Source: Tunturibacter empetritectus
GTDB lineage: Bacteria > Acidobacteriota > Terriglobia > Terriglobales > Acidobacteriaceae
Reading direction: 5' to 3'
DNA length: 64,000 nt
Assembly: GCF_040358985.1 (NCBI RefSeq)
Contig: NZ_CP132932.1
Coordinates: 2,728,001 to 2,792,000 of the forward strand
Notes under the pieces: generated by a model
Databases searched by the model: none
The model's input: only the letters and a program-made list of their open reading frames with translations
Told to the model about the DNA's origin: nothing
Shown: positions 3,908 through 18,635 of the stretch, piece after piece
How positions within the stretch are numbered: the first letter of the stretch is position 1
How the letters are laid out: each line of letters opens with the position of its first letter
Program-made: the position numbers and the translations under genes

Positions 3908-5182
3908 ATGTCGTCTTCTTCGCCCCTCCCCACGTCTAATTCAAAGAAACCGCGTTTGATAAGTTTGAAACGCAGCAGCATCCCACTCAAGCAGGACGAC
4001 CGTGTGAACCTCAGCCTTCTGGAACCAGAGATCGAGCAAGCGCCTGCCCCGCAGCCTGCAACCAGGACCACGCGCAAGCCGCCCTTGCCGGCTCTCACCG
4101 GAATCCGCACACTCCTCGCCATCTTCATCATTCTCTTTCACTTCACCCCGCCCCACTTGGGCCTCCTCTACCCCATCATCGACAACGGCTACGTCTTCGT
4201 CGGCGTCTTCTTCCTCATCTCCGGCTACGTGCTAACCTACAACTACGCCGACCGCGCCAGCACCCTCATCAAGCGCGAGTTCTGGCTGGCCCGATTCTCC
4301 CGCCTCTACCCCATCTACCTCCTCGTCCTGCTGATCTCCTTCCGCATGGTGCAGGACGAGTGGCACGCCCGCTCCCACTTTGAGTTCTGGCAGGGAATCA
4401 TCCTCACCCCTCTAGTCCTTCAGGGTTGGAACCCCTCCGTCGCCACCTTCTGGAACACCGTCGCCTGGACCCTTTCGAGCGAGGTAGTTCTCTACGCCGC
4501 CTTCCCCTGGCTCATTCGTCTGCCATGGCCCAAAAAACCGGCCCAGCTGGTTCTTCTCATCATCGCCCTCTGGGTCATCGGCCTCATCCCCCACTCCCTC
4601 TATCTCTGGCTCAACCCCGACCACATCGTAGGTCCGGTCGACCGCTATAGCTCGACCCAGCTCATCCGCTTCCTCAAGTACACCCCGCTCCCTTACGTCT
4701 GCACCTTCCTCATTGGGGTCACCCTGGGCAAACTCCAGCATGCCCTCACCATCTCCTCTCGTCAGCGCCTCCTGCTCTCGTCCGTCAGCCTGGCGCTCGT
4801 GGTTGTCTTCTTCTACACCCTCGTCCTCCGCGCGCCGTACCTCCTCATGCACGGCGGCCTCTTGACCCCTGTCTTCGCCGCCCTGGTCCTCGGCCTCAGC
4901 GGGCCTCACGCCATCTCGGCCCTCTTCTCCTGGCGCCCTCTTTTGCTCATTGGCGAGAGCAGCTACTGCCTCTACCTGCTCCACTTCAACGTCTTCCAAC
5001 TCATCCACCTCTACCATGTGCCGGAGCGCCTCCACCTGGCCGCTCTCGAGCCCTGGCTCTCCTACGCAATCCTCATTCTGCTCGCTCTGGCCGCTTTTCA
5101 CTTCGTAGAAACTCCCGCCCGCAAGGCCATCCTCAGCCGCTTCTCCCGTAAACCCCGCCCCCTCGCCCCAGCCTCTTCCTAG
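3908..5182 (+). CDS. Membrane acyltransferase, OafA/acyltransferase-3 family
   Basis: About 424 residues, of which the last 350 form roughly ten membrane helices. Family motifs: LTGIRTLLAIFIILFHF with the catalytic-type His, FFLISGYVLTYNY, RFSRLYPIYLLVL, WTLSSEVVLYAAFPW, and ESSYCLYLLHFNVFQ. Such proteins transfer acetyl or other acyl groups to surface glycans or lipids at the inner membrane; the substrate cannot be told from sequence. I place the start at 3908 because upstream codons in this frame fall in dispersed repeats; this leaves a cytoplasmic tail of about 60 residues. No glycan gene cluster surrounds it. Confidence 0.85.
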   Translation: MSSSSPLPTSNSKKPRLISLKRSSIPLKQDDRVNLSLLEPEIEQAPAPQPATRTTRKPPLPALTGIRTLLAIFIILFHFTPPHLGLLYPIIDNGYVFVGVFFLISGYVLTYNYADRASTLIKREFWLARFSRLYPIYLLVLLISFRMVQDEWHARSHFEFWQGIILTPLVLQGWNPSVATFWNTVAWTLSSEVVLYAAFPWLIRLPWPKKPAQLVLLIIALWVIGLIPHSLYLWLNPDHIVGPVDRYSSTQLIRFLKYTPLPYVCTFLIGVTLGKLQHALTISSRQRLLLSSVSLALVVVFFYTLVLRAPYLLMHGGLLTPVFAALVLGLSGPHAISALFSWRPLLLIGESSYCLYLLHFNVFQLIHLYHVPERLHLAALEPWLSYAILILLALAAFHFVETPARKAILSRFSRKPRPLAPASS

Positions 5183-6040
5183 TGTTGAGAGTCTTGAGTT
5201 CGTGGCAAATTCACCTTTGTTGTCGGCTTTATTTCTTTACGTCGCACTTTTGTCCCTAAGCAAAGTCGAATGGCGAAGCCCGCATTAGGCTGACGAACCC
5301 ATATCAGGTCTTTTTGCTGTCATCCTGAGCGCAGCGAAGGATCCCGAAGAGCTCAGACCTACCCGAACCGCCCATCCCTTCCGCCCATCATCTTCACGCC
5401 GTGTCTGACGTTTTGGCCTTTGCCTGCCCTCCGTCTTTGCTGTGTCCTTCTTGTCATCCCTCAGGGGATCTGCTGTTACCGTTGCCATCGATCCCCGAAA
5501 TCCTGTCAAGCCCCAAAAAAGCAAATTCCCGCGCCAGACAAGGACAAACGCGTGGCGTATTAGTTTCACTCCCTCAGCTATACTTAAATCAAGCTCAAAG
5601 AAGATGCCCTCGGACGAAAATCCGAGGGCATCGTTGTTTAGAAGCGAGCAGTGTCTAGAAGACACAGCCAGAAACATTGGCCATAACTCATTGATTTCAA
5701 GTATTTTAGCAATAAACCATTTAGGATGAGTAGCTTGCGGGCGGGTATGCCGTATAAACAGTTCAAACTAATAAACTTGCGCGCAAATACCCCAAGAGGG
5801 GGAGGGGGGTATCTCACAGGATAAGGCGTTGGAATAACGGAGGAGAGGACGAAAGAGCGACGTTAGAGGCTGTTTAAAAATCCTGTCGTGTTTAAGGGCA
5901 CGGCTTCAGCAGTGCCGCTAGAGCGTTGCAAGCATTGCGGCTTCAGCCGCTGAGGTCCGTCTTTCGCTTTCGGAGGGTATTCTTCATCACCCTTGTAGCC
6001 ATCAAACCGGAAGAGTGCTATCTGCTCATAAAAGAGGACG
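5183..6040. other. Long intergenic stretch with repeats and an orphan hairpin
   Basis: No convincing gene. It contains a dispersed repeat (5318-5345), the orphan hairpin at 5603-5632, a purine-rich tract (agagggggaggggggtat, about 5790-5810) and, at about 5870-6030, a region whose minus strand gives a 74-codon frame (5863-6087) with the composition of a spurious hypothetical. Confidence 0.6.
5603..5632. terminator. Orphan 12-bp perfect hairpin
   Basis: GATGCCCTCGGA (5603-5614) pairs perfectly with TCCGAGGGCATC (5621-5632) around a six-base loop. No gene ends next to it. The T-run after it is short (gttgttta). It could terminate an unannotated small RNA or be a relic. Confidence 0.45.
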
Positions 6041-6044
6041 CGAA

Positions 6045-6073
6045 AGAGCCCCGCGGGCAACGGGGCTTTTTCG
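6045..6073. terminator. Terminator below the propeller lipoprotein pair
   Basis: Stem AGCCCCG (6047-6053) with CGGGGCT (6061-6067) and five T on the plus strand. It lies 20 bases beyond the stop of the minus-strand gene ending at 6093 and may act in both directions, although the T-run is better on the plus strand. Confidence 0.7.
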
Positions 6074-6092
6074 TTGACACATAACAAACAGG

Positions 6093-7472
6093 CTATTCGA
6101 CGATGATCTGCGTAGGATGCGATCCGTTCGCTACGGCCACAGCACAGCTTGGCAGCGCGCCCGAGGGGAACGGAGTATTTTGCACCTGCTTCAACGTGCC
6201 GTTTTGAGGAGCGAGCTGAAACGCCGAGACATCGCCTTCGAGGTTGTTCGTCGCATAGAGGTAGATACCCAGCGCCGGCTCGATCGCAACGCAGGTTGGA
6301 CCCGTACCCGTCGCCGTCGAAGCAGAACCGACAGCGCCCGTCACATTCCCCGAGGTTTGATCGATCGTATAAGCGCCGACCGTACCCGAGGAGAAGTTCG
6401 CTACATACAGGAACTTGCCCCGAGGATCAATCGTCACACCCACCGGAAAGATACCAGTGGCGAACGGGCTGCCGTTGGTCATCGGAGTCAGCGACCCATC
6501 TGAATTCACCGTACTGCCATACAGTTGGTTCGTCGCCTGATCGGTAATGTAAACAAAACGCGAAGAAGGATCTGCCGCAATGGCGCTGGGTGTTGTTCCT
6601 GCGCCGTATCCGGTGGCGACCGTCTTGCCCGTGCTATCAGTCGTAATCGTGGTCCCAGGAGTAGGAGTCAATGTGCCCGTCGTCGAGTTCTGCACGAAGC
6701 CCAGAACCGTCGCCTTCGGTGTGGTCGGTGTCTCCTGATCGATCACATACACATAGTTGGTCAGGAGTCCGTTGTTGGCAGTAGCTGTGGGCGTCGTCGA
6801 CAGGATGCAGTTTGCAGAGCTGGTACCTCCGGCGGCCAATGGTTGGCAGCGCGGACGGCTCACCACAACGCCAAACGGTGTATTGCCAACCGGAACGTAG
6901 TTCAGAGAGGTCAGAGAGGTCGTGGTTCCAATCGTCGTATTTGCTACGGCTGTTCCCAGCGAGCCGTCTTTATTGATCGGGAAGATCGTAATACCGCCCG
7001 GCCCGGGCGATGCGGTCGAGTAAAGCTGCTGTCCCTGTGGACCGAGCTGATACTGGAACGTGACATAAAGGAAGGTGCCTGCCGCATCCATCGCAACTGA
7101 GGTCCCGTTGCTCCCCGTTATGTTGTACGTGTTCTGCAGGTAGATCTTCCCGTCGGTGCCGACCGAGTACTCTCCAATCGTTGAATCGTCGTGGTTCACG
7201 ACATACACATTCAACCCGTTCGGCGAGGCAATCAGGGTAACCGGATTCCGGCCTGCCGGGATCGGGGAATCCGCAAGCGGCGTCAACGAACCAATCTGGT
7301 AGTCCACCGCGTACGCATTGATGCCACCGTTGGGAGAGGTGCTCGTCAACGGTTTTGCCGTAGTCACATAAACGTACGCCAGCGTGTAGTCGCGGCTGCA
7401 CGCCGTTACGCTCACCAACGCAAAAGACAATATCGAGGCCACTGTTCCGCGACCCATCTTATTCCACTTCAT
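6093..7472 (-). CDS. Beta-propeller lipoprotein, lactonase-like
   Basis: A 459-residue exported protein. The N-terminus has a lipoprotein signal with lipobox VTAC (Cys about residue 25), so it is probably anchored to a membrane. The rest consists of repeats of the YncE/6-phosphogluconolactonase-like propeller type: YVYVTTAK, LNVYVVNHDDSTIGEY, GTFLYVTF, SRFVYITDQATNQL, GKFLYVANFSSGTVGAY, IYLYATNN. Each blade reads like 'seen as a name with a value', typical of the acidobacterial lactonase-family lipoproteins; enzymatic activity is not implied. A paralogue of the same design lies 105 bases upstream and the two are probably one transcript. Confidence 0.8.
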   Translation of the reverse strand: MKWNKMGRGTVASILSFALVSVTACSRDYTLAYVYVTTAKPLTSTSPNGGINAYAVDYQIGSLTPLADSPIPAGRNPVTLIASPNGLNVYVVNHDDSTIGEYSVGTDGKIYLQNTYNITGSNGTSVAMDAAGTFLYVTFQYQLGPQGQQLYSTASPGPGGITIFPINKDGSLGTAVANTTIGTTTSLTSLNYVPVGNTPFGVVVSRPRCQPLAAGGTSSANCILSTTPTATANNGLLTNYVYVIDQETPTTPKATVLGFVQNSTTGTLTPTPGTTITTDSTGKTVATGYGAGTTPSAIAADPSSRFVYITDQATNQLYGSTVNSDGSLTPMTNGSPFATGIFPVGVTIDPRGKFLYVANFSSGTVGAYTIDQTSGNVTGAVGSASTATGTGPTCVAIEPALGIYLYATNNLEGDVSAFQLAPQNGTLKQVQNTPFPSGALPSCAVAVANGSHPTQIIVE

Positions 7473-13207: not shown

Positions 13208-13624
13208 ATGAACACCCTATCGGCAAGCACATTCGATTCGGCAGAGGCTCAACATCCCATGCAATCGCTTGATATTCAGGGCTTCAGCTACGAAGAGCGC
13301 CAAGGCCTTCTGCCCTCGCTCACCTCGGCCTTCGCAGACTGCGGAGGCTGGATCCTCAACCGCAGGACCACCTCGCCCACCACCATGGAGTTCCGCGTCG
13401 AGATCCAGCTCCGCGCCGTCATCGACCTCTACGCCTCCATCATCTCTTCTGGCCTCGAGCTCACCCGCGCCGGTCACCTTGGCTTTACCCACCTCTGCAC
13501 ATGCCGTAAAAATCTCGCCACCCCGGCTGACCTCGGTCAGATCATCACCATCCGTCTGGAGATTAGCTTCCTGGAAGACGCCACACTGCAGTCTCTCTTC
13601 CTCTCCGCCGGAGAGTGCGCCTGA
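13208..13624 (+). CDS. Conserved hypothetical protein, 138 aa
   Basis: No recognised domain. It has a mixed alpha/beta pattern with the phrases FADCGGWILNRRTTSPTTME and MEFRVEIQLRAVIDLYASI and a cluster FTHLCTCRKNL with two cysteines; no signal peptide. An equally long frame exists on the opposite strand, but the plus-strand product has the more protein-like composition. An internal ATG at 13259 (MQSLDIQGFSYEER) is an alternative start. It is convergent with the Fap-like operon, 16 bases from its last gene. Confidence 0.6.
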   Translation: MNTLSASTFDSAEAQHPMQSLDIQGFSYEERQGLLPSLTSAFADCGGWILNRRTTSPTTMEFRVEIQLRAVIDLYASIISSGLELTRAGHLGFTHLCTCRKNLATPADLGQIITIRLEISFLEDATLQSLFLSAGECA

Positions 13625-13640
13625 TCGTCCCACGCAACAC

Positions 13641-14918
13641 CTAATGCACGGTCAGTTTTTTCTGCTTCGGTCCCCACAGTCCCATCCGGAACGGCACACC
13701 CACTGAGAACTGCAGATTCGGCGTATCCGGCGTCAGCCCCACGCCAAAGCTCAGATCAATCGTCTTACCCGGCGCGTACACATAACTCGTTCCCAACCGC
13801 AACGTGCCTTCCACCAGATACGAAGCAGGAATATCCACCCCGTTCAACGTAGTGCTGCGAGTAAACCGTTGATCCCAACCAAGAGTCATCGATACGTCCG
13901 GGTTCAACGCCAGGATCGACCCAATCTGGAATCCCACCGCATCCCCCGGGTTGAAGTGCCCCACCATTGTCGCCGCCGGGTTACTCGGATCGTTAGCTGA
14001 AACCGTATGATCACCCTTCAGATTCGCCGTATAAGAAAGATTCCCGAAGAACACCACCGGATCGCTCGACTTCGCCAAAGTCAGGTTTCCCTGTATTGCA
14101 TTGAAGCCTGTCCCAAGCGCCACCTGGCTGCTCTGCAAATTGTAAGGATCTTTCCCCGTCGTCGATTTGAACCGCACACTTGCCAGCATGTCTGGAATCT
14201 TTCCATGCTCGCTGGTCAGCTGCCGCGAGATGCCGGCAGAGATATCGCCCAAACCAAAACTGCTCGAAGAGGTTTGGACATTATTCGCGTCCACCGTCCG
14301 AATCAACTCATACCCATAAGGAATCGTGAGATCGGCCTGGAGCTTATGCGGCAATCCAAGCCGCGCCGTGAAGTTTGGCAGAAGATAGTCCTCCCTCACA
14401 CGCTCCGAAGCGATATCACCCACCACCAGCACCGGCAGCAACGCAAAACCATTCACCGTCACATGGTCCGACGACGCGCTGAAGTAAGACGTGGTGTTGT
14501 CGACCTCCAGGGTTCCAGAGGGCAGCAGCAATCCGCCACGCACAATCAAAGCTTGATCCAGAGCCTCCGTTGCCTGCCGTTCCGTGCTGTCGTAGGTTGA
14601 CGTCGACACCACCGAGTTGATCACGCGACTGGTCGAGGCGGCCGGCAGAGTAGGACGATCCTCCACCTTCGCCGGAGTAGTAAAGCCTCCATTCATACGC
14701 CACTCAAGCTCATTCACGCGCTCCAGCAGATTGCGGATGATCGCATCGCGCTCTCGCAGCGCCTCCTGCAGCTTCAGATCCACAGGGTCTCTAGCCGCCG
14801 TTGTAGCTTTGGCAATCTCCTGTGTCTGCGGCTGACCATTCGCTGATGTCTGAGCAAGGAGTGATCCCGTGCTCGCCAGCAGAACCACAATCACTGATAA
14901 AACTCTTCGCCGCAACAT
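13641..14918 (-). CDS. Outer-membrane beta-barrel exporter, FapF-like candidate
   Basis: 425 residues with a signal peptide (MLRRRVLSVIVVLLASTGSLLAQ), a heptad-rich coiled coil at about 46-77 (LQEALRERDAIIRNLLERV), a linker, and then about 290 residues of alternating polar/hydrophobic strands ending in KKLTVH: VDNTTSYFSAS, KLQADLTIPYGYELI, MTLGWDQRF, IDLSFGVGL. This order, coiled coil then barrel, matches FapF, the trimeric channel exporting amyloid in pseudomonads; similar barrels are also annotated as phenol-degradation 'transporters'. It is the last gene of the operon, 16 bases below the C39 peptidase gene. Assignment rests on architecture and context, not on a sequence search. Confidence 0.7.
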   Translation of the reverse strand: MLRRRVLSVIVVLLASTGSLLAQTSANGQPQTQEIAKATTAARDPVDLKLQEALRERDAIIRNLLERVNELEWRMNGGFTTPAKVEDRPTLPAASTSRVINSVVSTSTYDSTERQATEALDQALIVRGGLLLPSGTLEVDNTTSYFSASSDHVTVNGFALLPVLVVGDIASERVREDYLLPNFTARLGLPHKLQADLTIPYGYELIRTVDANNVQTSSSSFGLGDISAGISRQLTSEHGKIPDMLASVRFKSTTGKDPYNLQSSQVALGTGFNAIQGNLTLAKSSDPVVFFGNLSYTANLKGDHTVSANDPSNPAATMVGHFNPGDAVGFQIGSILALNPDVSMTLGWDQRFTRSTTLNGVDIPASYLVEGTLRLGTSYVYAPGKTIDLSFGVGLTPDTPNLQFSVGVPFRMGLWGPKQKKLTVH

Positions 14919-14934
14919 CGACCCGCCTTTCCCT

Positions 14935-15615
14935 TCAGTACAAATAGTTGCTCGGAGCCGTAACTCCGATCTTGCGCGAGATCAGCGATTCATCCGGTAC
15001 CATGCGTGCGGCCACAGGAAGACGTTTGTCTCCGATCATTCGGTCGTCTGGCGGATGCACTACGAAGACGATGCCGTTCTTCCACAAGGTCTGAAACCGG
15101 TCGACTCGCATCGTGATATTGCCGAAGCCCGGATCGCCCAGAATCACATGCCCCGCCACAATGCCCTTTACCACCACAAAATGGTCGAAGCCTTTCTCTC
15201 GTATCGGGACGATCACAGAAGCTTTTTCCTGCGCCAGATCCTGGATCGTCATACCACTGAAAGCCTCAGCATGGTATCCCCGCGCCTCGGAAAAGTGTTT
15301 CAAATCGAGCAATGAAAATCCGCCTCGGGAGCGCACACGAGTCGCATCTACGCGATGAAGAAGCCACACCACAATCGAAGTCTCAGTCGTATCGTCCTTG
15401 AAGTCATAAGTAAGGAGTGTGCTCAACGCCGCGGCGCCGCAACTGACATCCCAACGCTGCTTCACGACGCCCTCATCGCGAATCTCTTTCAGGCTTCGGA
15501 CATTCTTGCTTCCCCTCGCCCCCGTTGCTTCTCCAGTGTTCTGAGCGCGCACGGGGGCTGGGAAGAGAACAAGACCCGCCAGTCCAGCAGCAAGTATCGA
15601 TCGTAAGCAGTTCAT
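14935..15615 (-). CDS. Periplasmic C39-family cysteine peptidase, FapD-like
   Basis: 226 residues: signal peptide (MNCLRSILAAGLAGLVLFPAPVRAQ), then a C39 papain-like domain. Catalytic residues visible: Q53 and C59 in VKQRWDVSCGAAALSTLL, H145 in FDHFVVVKG and D161 in LGDPGFGNI. C39 peptidases cleave precursor peptides after a double-glycine-type leader. Here the domain is not fused to an ABC transporter, as in FapD. Its start codon overlaps the stop of the preceding small-protein gene by one base (TGATG), indicating translational coupling. The likely substrates are the two products encoded just upstream, which share a leader-like motif. Confidence 0.88.
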   Translation of the reverse strand: MNCLRSILAAGLAGLVLFPAPVRAQNTGEATGARGSKNVRSLKEIRDEGVVKQRWDVSCGAAALSTLLTYDFKDDTTETSIVVWLLHRVDATRVRSRGGFSLLDLKHFSEARGYHAEAFSGMTIQDLAQEKASVIVPIREKGFDHFVVVKGIVAGHVILGDPGFGNITMRVDRFQTLWKNGIVFVVHPPDDRMIGDKRLPVAARMVPDESLISRKIGVTAPSNYLY

Positions 15616-16025
15616 CAGTGTTTCCCAGTCAGGTTGGACTGCACAATGCTCCCTACCGTCGAGTTCATATTGACGGTCAGGTTCAGCAGCACATTGATAT
15701 TGGAGTTCACAGCATTGATGTTGACCAGCGAACTCAGATTTTGCTGCGCGCTGCCATTCAACGTGAGCGTGCCCATGTTGGTGGTTGAGGTCAGCGGTCC
15801 GGTCAACACCTGCAGCGTACCGGCACCTGTCACCAGTCCGTTCGCAGTTGACGCCGACCCTTGAAACTGCACGACTCCATTCGACAAGCTCGCCGAAACG
15901 CCCGCTGCCGTAACCCGATCCATGGCAGCGTCGTTCAGCGATTGGCCTTTATGCTTGGTTGAGCTTTGGGCCAGTCCTGCTTGAGTTAGCAACGCAAGAC
16001 TCGCAACTACGAAAAGACGACGCAT
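15615..16025 (-). CDS. Small secreted fibril-like protein with C39-type leader
   Basis: 136 residues: signal peptide to about residue 19, a short basic stretch, then LNDAAMDRVTAAG (30-42) and a low-complexity Asn/Ser/Thr/Val/Leu-rich region without cysteines (TLTLNGSAQQNLSSLVNINA, NSNINVLLNLTVNMNS). The motif has L, M and V spaced as in double-glycine leaders (positions -12, -7, -4) with Ala-Ala in the place of Gly-Gly. The same motif occurs in the larger protein upstream. I infer it is a minor, nucleator-like subunit (compare FapB). It precedes the C39 gene and follows the large subunit by 73 bases. Confidence 0.75.
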   Translation of the reverse strand: MRRLFVVASLALLTQAGLAQSSTKHKGQSLNDAAMDRVTAAGVSASLSNGVVQFQGSASTANGLVTGAGTLQVLTGPLTSTTNMGTLTLNGSAQQNLSSLVNINAVNSNINVLLNLTVNMNSTVGSIVQSNLTGKH

Positions 16026-16098
16026 AAATCCTCCTTGATGCCACAGAGAAGCGTAGGGCGGGGCTCCCTGGTTAGAGGAGCCCTCCCTGCGGCCGTCT

Positions 16099-17454
16099 TT
16101 AGCGGGATTGCGAGATGCTGTTGACTTGGCTAAGGGTCGGCATCGTGGTCAGGTTTGTCGTATGAGCAATGTTCAGCCCATTGGCAACCATACCGCCGGC
16201 CGCGTTGACGATGTTCAACGCCTTCGCGTTCTGCTCTGCCGTACCGGCAAGGGTCACGCTATAGCTATTGGTGTCGCTGATCGTCGATCCATCGACTGCG
16301 ATGTTCTTCGCGGCGGCTGCATCGAAGCTGACTGCGCCCTGTATGTTTTGAATAACGTGGCTGCTCGTGGATTCGCTCTCAGAGTCTGACTTCATCTTGC
16401 TGGTCGCTATGCTGGTAGACGTAGCGGTCGCGTCGGAAGCTGTCGCACTCTGGTCGTGAGTGGTCGAGGAGGTATCGGAGGTGTTCAGGCTTGCATTCAG
16501 CGACTTCGCTGAGGTTTTAGACGCGGATTTATTCTTGGACCAGCTGGCCATCTCAGCTGTCTGGTCAGAGCTGTTTGCCGTGTTTGAAGCAGTGTTCGCC
16601 GTGCCAGCCGTGAAGTTGCTTGCAGATCCGTTATTCGTGGTGGCAAGATTGTCAGTCCCGCTGCCTACGGTCGACGATGTGGCTCCAAGGCTTGAAGCAC
16701 CATTGTTATTCGACGAAGTGCCGGCCGATGAGGAGCTTCCCGGCTTGGTGGAAGCCGAGGTCGCATACGTCTCGTTTGAAGCCGCTGTATTGTTGCTGGT
16801 GCTTGCATCGGTTGCCGTCTCGCTCGCTGTCCCAGAAGCCGACTTCACGTTGCTATACATCGATGAGCGGTTTGATGTAGTAGCAAGTGTCGCGGCCAGC
16901 GTTTTGCTTGAGCTGGTTGTGAAGTCGTCCGCATAGGATGCGCTGCTGGTATCCGTATGGTTATAAGAAGCATTGAGGCTCTTGGAAGAGCTGCTCGTCG
17001 CCGTCGCGGTGTCTGCGTAGGTGGCGTCGAGTTGGCTGTTTGCGCCCCGCTTGTAACCAGTGAGAACTGCTGACGATGAGCTATCCTGACTGATACCGTT
17101 GGCCTGCGTCACAGCGGTTGGTTTGGATGAGGCATCCGACAACGCGCTGCTGTCGTAGACGTTCACGCCATTGGCAACCAGCGCGTCAGTCGAACTCACG
17201 ATGTTGATGCCGCTGGCACCCATCAGTGCAGATCCCGAGAGATTCACCGCACCTGTGTTGTTTTCAGTAACGGTTGAGTTGTTGGCCGCGATCGAAGAGT
17301 TCTCTTCGCCGGCGGCGGTGACTTTGTCCATCTGGTTGTCACGCAGCGCTTGCTTCGCATGTTTGTCGTTGCTGGATTTCGTCTTGTTCTGGCCGTAGGC
17401 GGAGCCGCCGACGAGAACCGATGCGGTAACGAGAGTGCAAATGAGTTTATTCAC
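16099..17454 (-). CDS. Large secreted Ser/Thr/Asn-rich protein, candidate amyloid subunit
   Basis: 451 residues: signal peptide (MNKLICTLVTASVLVGGSAYG), pro-region, leader-like motif LRDNQMDKVTAAG (37-49), then a cysteine-free chain dominated by Ser, Thr, Ala, Asn and Asp. Two related modules bracket a 250-residue low-complexity linker: SGINIVSSTDALVANGVNV with VTQANGISQ near 81-123, and ALNIVNAAGGMVANGLNI with LSQVNSISQ at 412-450. Repeats separated by disordered linkers are the layout of FapC. First gene of the operon, preceded by a probable promoter and a 5' hairpin. It could instead be a non-amyloid adhesin; composition makes homology searches weak. Confidence 0.75.
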   Translation of the reverse strand: MNKLICTLVTASVLVGGSAYGQNKTKSSNDKHAKQALRDNQMDKVTAAGEENSSIAANNSTVTENNTGAVNLSGSALMGASGINIVSSTDALVANGVNVYDSSALSDASSKPTAVTQANGISQDSSSSAVLTGYKRGANSQLDATYADTATATSSSSKSLNASYNHTDTSSASYADDFTTSSSKTLAATLATTSNRSSMYSNVKSASGTASETATDASTSNNTAASNETYATSASTKPGSSSSAGTSSNNNGASSLGATSSTVGSGTDNLATTNNGSASNFTAGTANTASNTANSSDQTAEMASWSKNKSASKTSAKSLNASLNTSDTSSTTHDQSATASDATATSTSIATSKMKSDSESESTSSHVIQNIQGAVSFDAAAAKNIAVDGSTISDTNSYSVTLAGTAEQNAKALNIVNAAGGMVANGLNIAHTTNLTTMPTLSQVNSISQSR

Positions 17455-17526
17455 TTCTGCCTCCTGGGCTTTGTTGGCGAGCGCGACCTGCTACGCAGCA
17501 AGGCCGGCTGCATAGGGGACAAAATT

Positions 17527-17580
17527 GACGCACCACTCTGCGGGCGCACGCGGAGACTCAGCGGGCGCAGTTGGTGCGTC
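17527..17580 (-). promoter_or_regulatory. Long 5'-UTR hairpin of the Fap-like operon
   Basis: GACGCACCA (17527-17535) and TGGTGCGTC (17572-17580) are perfect inverted repeats; inside them CTGCG (17538-17542) pairs with CGCAG (17566-17570). In the minus-strand transcript this forms a stem of 14 pairs with a small bulge, 73 bases before the first start codon, followed by AATTTTG. It may stabilise the mRNA or act as an attenuator. Confidence 0.55.
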
Positions 17581-17584
17581 ACGT

Positions 17585-17613
17585 AACTATCCGGGGTTAG
17601 GGCTTCAACTCAA
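17585..17613 (-). promoter_or_regulatory. Probable promoter of the Fap-like operon
   Basis: Minus strand TTGAGT (17613-17608), 17-base spacer, ATAGTT (17590-17585). The expected transcription start, about 17578, coincides with the first bases of the 5' hairpin. The rest of 17614-18029 shows no convincing gene. Confidence 0.4.
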
Positions 17614-18029
17614 GCTGAATAAAGTCAGCGTAAAACGTAAAAAGCGGAATGCTGCATGCGAATCTGACTGGTCGTTCAAGCCGATCGCGTCCGTAATGTA
17701 GTTCGTGCATGAAGCCCGTCACTACTAATGAATGTCATCTCTGTCTTGCAGATAGTGCGCGACAGATGGAGCCCGTTTCAGAAGTATCTTTCAGACTTCC
17801 GACAGCATTACGACATGCAATTCACGTGCCATGTCGTGCCCCCGCATTCCACAGGGAATTCTCGTGCCTCTCACGCGTCATCATGCACCAGCTTGCAAAT
17901 TCCGAGGAAAAAGTTATCTCGCTGCCGCTCCCACGTCAGTAACTTCCTTGCTATGATCTGCGTAACTTACGCTGTTTTATTCTCCCGCCATCACCTCGCT
18001 CGTTATCTCAAGGCCGCCGCAGTCCACAG

Positions 18030-18635
18030 TCAGCGCCCAAGCTCCACCACCGTCTTGCGGTGCAGCACACTGTCAGAGTCGCCAATCACCAGCAATCCCG
18101 GCTGCTTCCAGCCATGCGTCAGAACCAGTCTCAAATCTGTCGCATCTCCAGCCACGTTGAAGATCGGCTCACTCACCACCGAAGCTCCGCCACCCACCTT
18201 CGTAGCCAATCCCACTCCATTGACTCCAGCCGATTCCTCCCAGCGACGCCCCTGCGCATCCGTCAGATAAACCTGTATCAAGCGTTCGCTCTGCGCCGAC
18301 CGTCCCCGATTTGTAACTCGGACGGTTACTCGCACCAGGCGCCGTCCATCGCGGACCATGAAGCCCTTCACCTCCTCCACCCCCGTGACCGTAAAGCACA
18401 TCTCATCAAAGCACTGCGGCTGCCCCACCGCTACCACTCTCTGTTTCTGCCCCAGCGAAACCGCTATCAGCACTGATAGATACACCACCCAAACCGCGGC
18501 CAGCCAGGCTGTCCCTCGACGCACTCGTGCCCGTTCGCCACGCAGCCACGACACCCCAATACCCACCACTCCCAGTGCCGTCCAACCCACCACGCCTGCC
18601 AGCAAAAGCTCGGTCAGCCTCACTCCCCACCCCAT
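18030..18635 (-). CDS. Membrane-anchored protein with DUF4352-like domain
   Basis: 201 residues. Two membrane helices at the N-terminus (LTELLLAGVVGWTALGVVGI and WLAAVWVVYLSVLIAVSL), then a domain facing outward with a beta-sandwich pattern: VAVGQPQCFDEMCFTVTGVE, RLVRVTVRVTNRGRSAQSER, VYLTDAQGRRWEES, DLRLVLTHGWKQPG. That pattern (a comparison of a property, then 'VRVTVRVTNRGR') is that of DUF4352/telokin-like extracellular domains. Start 18635 is the first ATG before the first helix. It is divergent from the ABC ATPase gene with only 24 bases between starts, so the two promoters overlap. Confidence 0.7.
   Translation of the reverse strand: MGWGVRLTELLLAGVVGWTALGVVGIGVSWLRGERARVRRGTAWLAAVWVVYLSVLIAVSLGQKQRVVAVGQPQCFDEMCFTVTGVEEVKGFMVRDGRRLVRVTVRVTNRGRSAQSERLIQVYLTDAQGRRWEESAGVNGVGLATKVGGGASVVSEPIFNVAGDATDLRLVLTHGWKQPGLLVIGDSDSVLHRKTVVELGR

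Follow-up and report, generated by a model that had tools for sequence, protein, structure and literature searches.

Among the closest described systems to the locus analysed here is the Fap system of Pseudomonas (fapABCDEF), in which one operon encodes a FapF-type outer-membrane barrel, a secreted C39 peptidase (FapD) and large and small repeat-bearing proteins. FapA is often absent from true Fap. A second system, Fil (FilA-C), carries the NCBIfam name 'putative pilus system' and likewise places a C39 peptidase beside a FapF-type barrel; the gene after the barrel in Fil loci is presumably FadL-like. Among the open-licence papers listed by a search on the Fil proteins, nothing was on target. 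Secretion of FapC needs the periplasmic activity of FapD and its catalytic cysteine (PMC5557850). The target of FapD was called unclear in that paper and yet to be determined in a 2018 paper (PMC6173800), and a 2025 review names FapE and FapF as the presumed substrates of FapD (PMC12822426). In the available text of PMC5557850, the FapE N-terminus is described as absent from mass spectrometry, and FapA is reported to show no processing, though FapA has a leader-like stretch.

The preliminary description of the present locus presented a Fap-like operon outside the Proteobacteria as a novelty, but homologues of FapD and FapF had been published there before (PMC6173800, PMC12822426). Co-located fapD and fapF homologues were reported in 2018 from five further phyla, among which Acidobacteria may be included (PMC6173800), and Fap operons in 2025 from Desulfobacterota, Nitrospirota and Bacillota; the main text of the latter source, as available, does not name Acidobacteriota (PMC12822426). 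What is new here is the occurrence of double-glycine-type leaders on both secreted proteins, not found in the open-licence papers searched, PMC5135000 included.

Operon layout and conservation

The window (the whole stretch of DNA analysed, 64,000 nucleotides) comes from an acidobacterium, as had been supposed, namely a soil Edaphobacter. Four minus-strand genes at 13641-17454 encode, in the order described earlier, a large secreted protein, a small secreted protein, a C39 peptidase and a barrel (Table 1). The gap between the large and small genes is 73 bases, the small and C39 genes overlap by 1 base, and 16 bases lie between the C39 and barrel genes. The same order recurs in related genomes: it is kept in 16/16 relative loci, which were fetched via the C39 protein and picked by a strong match to it, and the four genes also follow it at L041 (another genus) and L043.

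A scan of positions 13400-18100 gave no sigma-70-like sites (2.1 in shuffles) and five terminator-like sites (4.0 in shuffles). The hairpin between the large and small genes had fold z-scores of -0.8 to -5.8 across 16 loci, with -1.8 for the copy in the Edaphobacter operon, and double-sided changes were found at 11 of its 19 consensus pairs (9 sequences).

Table 1. Features of the operon, in window positions
Feature	Position	Strand	Remarks
Large secreted protein gene	16099..17454	(-)	451 aa, GTG start
Leader of large protein	17311..17346	(-)	residues 37-48, LRDNQMDKVTAA
N-terminal repeat region, mature large protein	17086..17310	(-)	conserved columns, alignment A3; approximate boundaries
C-terminal repeat region, large protein	16102..16323	(-)	conserved columns, alignment A3; approximate boundaries
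RNA hairpin, large/small intergenic	16026..16098	(-)	5' of small gene's ribosome-binding site
Small secreted protein gene	15615..16025	(-)	136 aa
Leader of small protein	15903..15938	(-)	residues 30-41, LNDAAMDRVTAA
C39 peptidase gene	14935..15615	(-)	226 aa
Barrel gene	13641..14918	(-)	425 aa

Outer-membrane barrel and C39 peptidase

Judged by its sequence, the barrel is a FapF homologue, which bears out the earlier assignment. It matched the NCBIfam model of FapF at 6.7e-30 (104 bits, below the NCBI equivalog cut-off of 700) and that of FilC at 8.2e-16 (58 bits, below the cut-off of 630), and aligned over residues 138-410 with the solved FapF structures 5o67/5o65 at about 9e-22. Its N-terminus, read by eye, is coiled-coil-like at about residues 45-78. 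Among 80 loci retrieved with a C39 alignment alone, a barrel was found within 3 kb of the C39 gene in all 80 by a model iterated on those loci, and in 77 by a model made from Edaphobacter barrels alone.

The C39 domain was recognized by Pfam at 6.5e-16 (58.8 bits, cut-off 22). The best NCBIfam match of the protein was FilB (1.1e-34; 120 bits, below the cut-off of 475), and FapD followed at 2.3e-28 (99 bits, below the equivalog cut-off of 330), so that homology to FapD, as proposed earlier, was recovered by profile. The closest PDB match of its profile was 6mpz, a double-glycine-motif protease (4.7e-12). The Cys, His and Asp noted in the preliminary description of a stand-alone peptidase are present as Cys59, His145 and Asp161, and these residues and Gln53 are invariant in 18/18 aligned C39 proteins. 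On these profile matches, the protein is a secreted stand-alone homologue of FapD and FilB. By FilB comparison, Fil-like C39 proteins of the Marinobacter family and Pseudomonadaceae reached 268-288 bits; loci of Marinobacteraceae were Fil-like where tested. In C39 trees the Edaphobacter protein joined neither the Fap nor the Fil group but a third one, which also contains proteobacterial loci. Support was 100/99 for the Fil group and 93/90 for the one uniting true FapD with Fap-like rows, with deeper branches supported at 86-93, which is not strong.

Large and small secreted proteins

The large protein consists of a Sec signal, a C39-type leader, an N-terminal repeat, an S/T/A/N-rich linker and a C-terminal repeat. 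Homologues are present in 16/16 relative loci, and conserved columns among 17 mature sequences back the repeats previously described at both ends. The mature chain ranges from 167 to 630 aa over 17 loci, with a linker of highly variable length. No match to the large protein was found among the Pfam and NCBIfam family models, nor by sequence search of the PDB. Its single Cys is residue 6, within the signal peptide, and the mature protein is without any Cys, in agreement with the reported lack of CxxC in the subunits. The small protein has a Sec signal, a C39-type leader and one repeat resembling those of the large protein; by eye, both proteins carry the same repeat kind. Small-protein homologues occur in 16/16 relative loci and in 11 more distant loci (alignment A2), ten of which are proteobacterial in the wide sense. 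Among conserved N/Q positions of the large protein, a distance of 11 had the top count (four pairs, tied with distance 25), and the small protein has one pair at 11; this spacing is a hint only. The structure model of the mature large protein had a pLDDT of 38 and was unusable. That of the mature small protein reached 64.6, with about the first 31 residues alone well predicted and the repeat poor.

A 31-repeat model of the Fap repeats did not find them in the large (E 1.3) or small protein (E 1.9). On Pseudomonadaceae FapC it gave two matches at 1e-43 or better and a third at 1.4e-5, from loci that had also contributed to the model. An identity of the two proteins with FapC and FapB is not supported by this model. 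Models of FapE and FapA matched none of the four window proteins, as had been claimed; in a further set of 31 the FapE model found two at 8e-104 and the FapA model one at 2e-56, among Pseudomonadaceae proteins. The FilA model likewise had no match among the four. The small-protein profile was also compared with the small proteins that 16 Fap-like loci encode, in two rows of which (L123, L127) the mature start was misplaced. The comparison gave a probability of 1.7% and E 0.03; its score of 17.3 barely exceeded the 16.8 reached by the best of 30 column shuffles, too weak for a claim of homology.

Double-glycine-type leaders

Directly after the Sec signal, leaders of double-glycine type occur at exact spacing in 17/17 large and 17/17 small homologues. 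They end in A-A, not G-G, in both Edaphobacter proteins and in A-G in many relatives. The DNA pattern of the leader core has two occurrences in the 5.0 Mb genome, both in the large and small genes of the operon. Of 66 more distant loci, 51 had the motif in a neighbouring gene, compared with 9 of 502 control ORFs; it occurred in 49 of 83 neighbour ORFs, where shuffles gave an expectation of 1.9. The motif had been defined after inspection of 26 of these 66 loci. On 40 later-fetched loci it was present in 10, with a leader-bearing neighbour in 8 of 11 of the Brevundimonas family and 2 of 29 of the Marinobacter family (Marinobacteraceae); a loosened motif found six, below the ten of the first. 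The 2/29 in Marinobacteraceae, a Fil-like group in which the protease thus mostly lacks an adjacent gene with a leader, speaks against a universal leader rule.

In true Fap loci, a stretch of leader spacing with looser end residues is present in FapE (10/10) and FapA (4/4), and was found in neither FapB (0/5) nor FapC (0/4). In 5/5 fetched Pseudomonadaceae loci, this spacing recurs on FilA-like proteins in a stretch that ends in G-Q. The leader tag is probably what the export protease of the FapD family cuts. The leaders on both secreted proteins had been missed in the preliminary description.

Discussion

The Edaphobacter operon shares with Fap the FapF-type barrel, the secreted C39 peptidase, the large and small repeat-bearing proteins, their union in one operon and the stretches of leader spacing, which in Fap lie on FapE and FapA. 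It differs in that FapA and FapE are missing, the subunits are without Fap repeats or CxxC and carry the leader themselves, and the gene order is large-small-C39-barrel. The notion of a Fap-like operon holds in the sense of divergent FapF and FapD homologues; as Fap proper it fails on the missing FapA, FapE, Fap repeats and CxxC and on scores far below the cut-offs. With Fil, the operon has in common the C39 gene beside a FapF-type barrel, FilB as the top NCBIfam match and the leader spacing of FilA-like proteins, whereas its C39 protein falls in a separate tree group and the FadL-like gene after the barrel is missing. Unnamed loci with VTAG leaders (Geobacteraceae, Marinobacter, Ectothiorhodospira, Desulfobulbaceae and others) share its side of the C39 trees and have C39 followed by barrel; their small protein is homologous, their repeats are similar, and both the large and the small protein bear leaders. 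In those loci, however, the large-protein linker has a different composition, the leaders mostly end in A-G, and several have two large proteins. Curli was rejected, as CsgG has no match in the whole genome (4/14 control genomes match).

We conclude, with a probability of about 0.68, that the four genes form an operon for fibre secretion of FapD/FapF type, a reading based on the FapF and FapD homology, the four-gene order in 16/16 relative loci and the exactly spaced leaders (17/17 and 17/17). Sec would carry the large and small proteins through the inner membrane, the periplasmic C39 peptidase would cleave them after the leaders LRDNQMDKVTAA and LNDAAMDRVTAA, and the FapF-like barrel would export the matured chains. 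Assembly would take place outside, with the large protein as the probable major subunit, in which a variable S/T/A/N-rich linker would lie between two repeats that stack, and the small one-repeat protein as a probable minor or nucleating subunit. That the subunits are amyloid is the least certain step, at about even odds; neither structure model supports an amyloid fold, and the repeats are not Fap by model.

The same export machine may instead deliver a non-amyloid adhesive layer or filament with the S/T/N-rich chain as a flexible spacer, which we consider rather unlikely. Such a product would suit the pilus name of the Fil proteins, the C39 match that is closer to FilB than to FapD, the lack of modelled Fap repeats, the wide range of chain lengths and a large-protein model that is unfolded or unresolved; but the repeats of both subunits contain conserved Asn/Gln reminiscent of curli and Fap repeats, the barrel is far better matched by FapF than by FilC, and the C39 tree parts Edaphobacter from the Fil group (100/99).

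An uptake role for the barrel, as a channel of COG4313/Phenol_MetA_deg type with unrelated neighbours, is highly improbable in view of the FapF match, the barrel beside the C39 gene in 80 scanned loci and the conserved four-gene order, even though Pfam assigns it to PF13557 (E 1.6e-6) and FapF itself is similar to the Phenol_MetA_deg-type family (PMC6173800). Very little likewise speaks for a bacteriocin-like export locus with the small protein as a leader-bearing toxin or signal peptide. The protease family and the leader spacing are those of bacteriocin-exporter double-glycine peptidases (C39/PCAT), whose leader consensus is given as LSxxELxxIxGG (PMC12724294), and one distant small protein matched a CTB bacteriocin model both over its leader and beyond it (E 2.5e-4, 21 bits, cut-off 32). 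Unlike those exporters, the Edaphobacter C39 protein is stand-alone, secreted and without an ATPase, at 226 aa below ABC-exporter size, and its substrates would first pass through Sec, with Sec signals upstream of the leaders. The large protein shares leader and repeat with the small one, and no candidate immunity gene was seen in the operon.

The preferred reading of a fibre-secretion operon admits a wider proposal, which we hold in even balance: FapD-type proteins would be periplasmic double-glycine leader peptidases, acting on a leader that sits on the subunits here and on FapE and FapA in Fap, with the present operon in a third lineage beside Fap and Fil. In this compact operon of four genes, an explicit and short candidate cut site occurs at fixed spacing in each of the two secreted proteins; with this site and the equal spacing in FapE and FapA, the question of the FapD target becomes directly testable. 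If the proposal is true, leader cleavage would gate each subunit in the Edaphobacter lineage, with substrates that cross by Sec, are trimmed and then pass the barrel, and the operon would be a member of a third fibre-system lineage and not a reduced Fap. The operon also outlines a class whose fibre systems would escape surveys demanding Fap repeats.

Operon organization and homology

The four minus-strand genes reported in the preliminary description are present in that order in the 5,030,191-base genome, and the C39 protein is identical in Edaphobacter lichenicola M8UP22, which bears out the acidobacterial host and places it in the genus Edaphobacter. Both secreted proteins and the C39 protein start with a Sec-type signal, as judged by eye. 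The genes are spaced by a one-base overlap, 16 bases and 73 bases, which fits one transcript for all four; a consensus scan found no promoter for the operon.

Features and their coordinates
Feature	Sequence	Positions	Strand	Remark
Operon: large protein, small protein, C39 peptidase, barrel	window	13641-17454	minus	
RNA hairpin	window	16026-16098		gap between the large and small genes; same gap in L041 (another genus) and 14 of the loci L047-L063
Small gene	window	13208-13624	plus	convergent with the barrel gene; retained near the operon in many relatives
Large secreted protein, 630 aa	L111, MAG labelled Deltaproteobacteria/Myxococcota	4374-6266		in a C39/barrel locus

The hairpin is strong, quite divergent in sequence between loci and conserved in pairing, with double-sided changes at 11 of 19 consensus pairs (nine sequences). 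Of the 16 gaps, 13 have a z of at most −3.3, and the remaining three have −1.8 (the window), −1.6 and −0.8. Because a scan called no terminator-like site in this gap, the hairpin may shield the message of the large gene instead of terminating transcription.

The proposed kinship of barrel and peptidase with FapF and FapD was confirmed by NCBIfam profiles: the barrel matches FapF (6.7e-30) and FilC (8.2e-16), and the C39 protein FapD (2.3e-28) and, more strongly, FilB (1.1e-34), all four scores being far below the curated cut-offs. Barrel residues 138-410 match solved FapF chains at about 9e-22, and the best PDB match of an 18-protein C39 profile is the double-glycine-motif protease domain 6mpz (4.7e-12). 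Neither the large nor the small secreted protein has a Pfam or NCBIfam match, even with E values as high as 1 allowed.

As had been described, the large protein carries repeats at both ends. The linker between the N-terminal and C-terminal repeats is highly variable in length, and the mature chain ranges from 167 aa in L055, which has almost no linker, to 630 aa in L056 (17 loci, excluding the cut sequence of L061); in L026 the repeat pair appears by eye to be doubled. The small mature protein (93-98 aa, 18 loci) has a single repeat resembling that of the large protein, and aligns with the small proteins of 11 distant loci at 38-44% identity. From the alignments we judge by eye that the repeats of both proteins are homologous. 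A model built from 31 Pseudomonadaceae Fap repeats found none in the window proteins (large, E 1.3; small, E 1.9); three FapC proteins of Pseudomonadaceae matched it, two at 1e-43 or better and one at 1.4e-5. Since this model also misses large proteins from a number of Fap-like loci, among them L129 from Vibrio (E 8), the negative result is not proof of a separate origin. The large protein of L111 contains several repeats of related look, about eight by eye, and may link two-repeat subunits with long repeat fibres.

Leaders on both secreted subunits

The large and small proteins each have, a short way behind the signal peptide, a segment with double-glycine spacing: a hydrophobic residue at −12, Leu/Met at −7, a hydrophobic residue at −4, Ala at −2 and Ala/Gly/Ser at −1, counted back from the presumed cut. 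The consensus given for double-glycine leaders in PMC12724294 is LSxxELxxIxGG. The leader is present in 17/17 large and 17/17 small proteins (the window and 16 relative loci). A DNA pattern of the leader core, requiring Asp at −6 and covering one Leu codon only, has exactly two sites in the genome, one per secreted-protein gene, and its reverse has none.

The comparison was extended to 66 loci at greater distance (L064-L130 except L128). In 51 of them a neighbouring gene carries the motif, three of the 51 (L094, L115 and L125) having accidental-looking matches; the overlapping site classes comprise 37 directly upstream of the C39 gene, 14 directly downstream and 15 farther upstream. As the motif was defined after inspection of 26 of these loci, the remaining 40 are considered separately: 30 carry it, including two accidental-looking matches and several near-copies of inspected loci. 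Of 502 hydrophobic-core ORFs taken as a control, a set that surely includes many non-genes, 9 have the motif, and shuffled stretches gave an expectation of 1.9 matches versus 49/83 observed.

Both subunits would be exported across the inner membrane by Sec, cut at the leader by the C39 peptidase in the periplasm, passed through the barrel and assembled outside the cell. This route is supported by analogy with published FapD and FapE behaviour: according to PMC5557850, FapD acts in the periplasm, its Cys38 is required for FapC secretion, and the FapE N-terminus is missing in mass spectrometry, with no processing seen for FapA-D. The same paper describes the FapD target as unclear and the Fap proteins as devoid of canonical C39 sequences. 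The subunits may be amyloid, a reading based on analogy and on conserved Asn/Gln positions in the repeats. Our searches of open-licence literature found no earlier report of a leader on both subunits, or of a leader spacing matching FapE and FapA.

Comparison with Fap, Fil and related systems

FapD exceeds the cut-off in 12 of 59 genomes of the Stutzerimonas family, and in all ten of these available as loci FapE has a leader-like segment, identically spaced and with R-G-[RK] at its end. Such a segment occurs also in FapA (4/4; Phe or Ile at −7, ending S-G), and in none of the subunits FapB (0/5) and FapC (0/4). The pattern used in this comparison had been loosened after inspection of five loci, all of them among the ten. 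Many of these genomes contain a second FapD-like locus (L146-L150, Pseudomonadaceae), some alongside true Fap, whose C39 and barrel proteins match FilB and FilC; its FilA-like neighbour carries a stretch ending G-Q (5/5 fetched), and a further gene is presumably FadL-like. In Ralstonia- and Brevundimonas-type systems the leader ends R-G-G and lies on a gene that is FapE-like by position, the protein of L126 being unnamed by NCBIfam. Among 31 aligned leader-region proteins, NCBIfam models identified two FapE (8e-104), one FapA (2e-56) and two FilA (6e-15); the table gave no protein names, and the set contained exactly those counts. One leader-bearing protein of the 31 matched the alphaproteobacterial CsgH curli-chaperone model (E 0.0033).

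The unaltered first motif was found in 10 of 40 loci fetched afterwards, namely 8/11 of a Brevundimonas-family set and 2/29 of a Marinobacter-family set (L154-L182). Three further Brevundimonas-set loci have leaders by eye that the search missed through its limits or its pattern: L184, L186, and L188, the last with Thr at −12. A FapD-like peptidase occurs in 77/81 Marinobacter-family genomes, many with two, and 27 of the 29 loci examined have no leader-bearing neighbour. In eight inspected loci the upstream genes are unrelated, and two C39 proteins tested were FilB-like (7e-81 and 1e-79). These loci count against the leader-bearing neighbour as a general rule; in the Marinobacter family the substrate of the protease is different or encoded elsewhere.

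Distribution and phylogenetic position

The C39 protein has strong matches (E under 1e-80) in 16 of 37 genomes of the genus (own included) and weak ones in two; adding a single weak match from the class brings the count to 19/61. All 16 relative loci with a strong match, from 15 genomes of which one contributes two, retain the order large-small-C39-barrel, and the operon is intact in L041, from a different genus of the same family. Two genomes of the genus have only remnants: barrel and large-protein fragments lie between ABC-transporter and acpS genes in L044, and a barrel fragment adjoins ABC-transporter and 13208-type genes in L045, both loci having no C39 match; these remnants at the corresponding place point to operon losses.

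Across the phylum, strong FapD-like and FapF-like matches lie side by side in 14 of 396 genomes (own included). Twelve of these belong to the family of the host; the other two, L039 and L040, come from a second family and are arranged differently. When named genomes were scanned with the C39 alignment, 124 relatives were obtained. The best 80 of these comprise 18 from Edaphobacter, Granulicella and kin, a remainder mostly of Proteobacteria, Thermodesulfobacteriota or Myxococcota, two Omnitrophota, two acidobacterial MAGs (L077, L108), and single, possibly misbinned MAGs labelled Verrucomicrobia and Thermoleophilia. With a model iterated on the same loci, all 80 have a barrel gene no more than 3 kb from the C39 gene; a model of Edaphobacter barrels alone detected one in 77/80.

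The preliminary description took Fap to be a system described from Proteobacteria; Fap parts outside that group were already in print. A 2013 survey, in its excerpted text, lists Beta-, Gamma- and Deltaproteobacteria only (PMC3792158); FapD/FapF homologues were reported from five further phyla in 2018 (PMC6173800). A 2025 paper (PMC12822426) reports Fap from Desulfobacterota, Nitrospirota and Bacillota; the word Acidobacteriota does not occur in its main text.

A first C39 tree of 78 rows, leaving out L055, L061, L075, L080, L103, L107, L118, L121 and L122 as near-copies or cut, separated an Edaphobacter-type group (100/100) from a Fap-like group (100/100), with unnamed loci bearing VTAG-type leaders on the Edaphobacter side. 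A second tree of 51 hand-picked rows, including seven true FapD and nine Fil-like proteins, recovered true Fap (100/100) and Fap-like (99/95) rows joined at 93/90, Fil-like rows (100/99), and Edaphobacter (100/100) inside the VTAG group (89/81). Based on the groupings in both trees, the window C39 protein is placed by its sequence outside the Fap and Fil groups, with the order of deep branches not firmly supported. The designation as a Fap-like operon holds for the FapF and FapD homologues and not for the position of the peptidase or for repeats recognizable by the Fap model. Since L108 falls among Fap-like rows and L077 among VTAG rows, the Acidobacteriota may possess more than one kind of such system.
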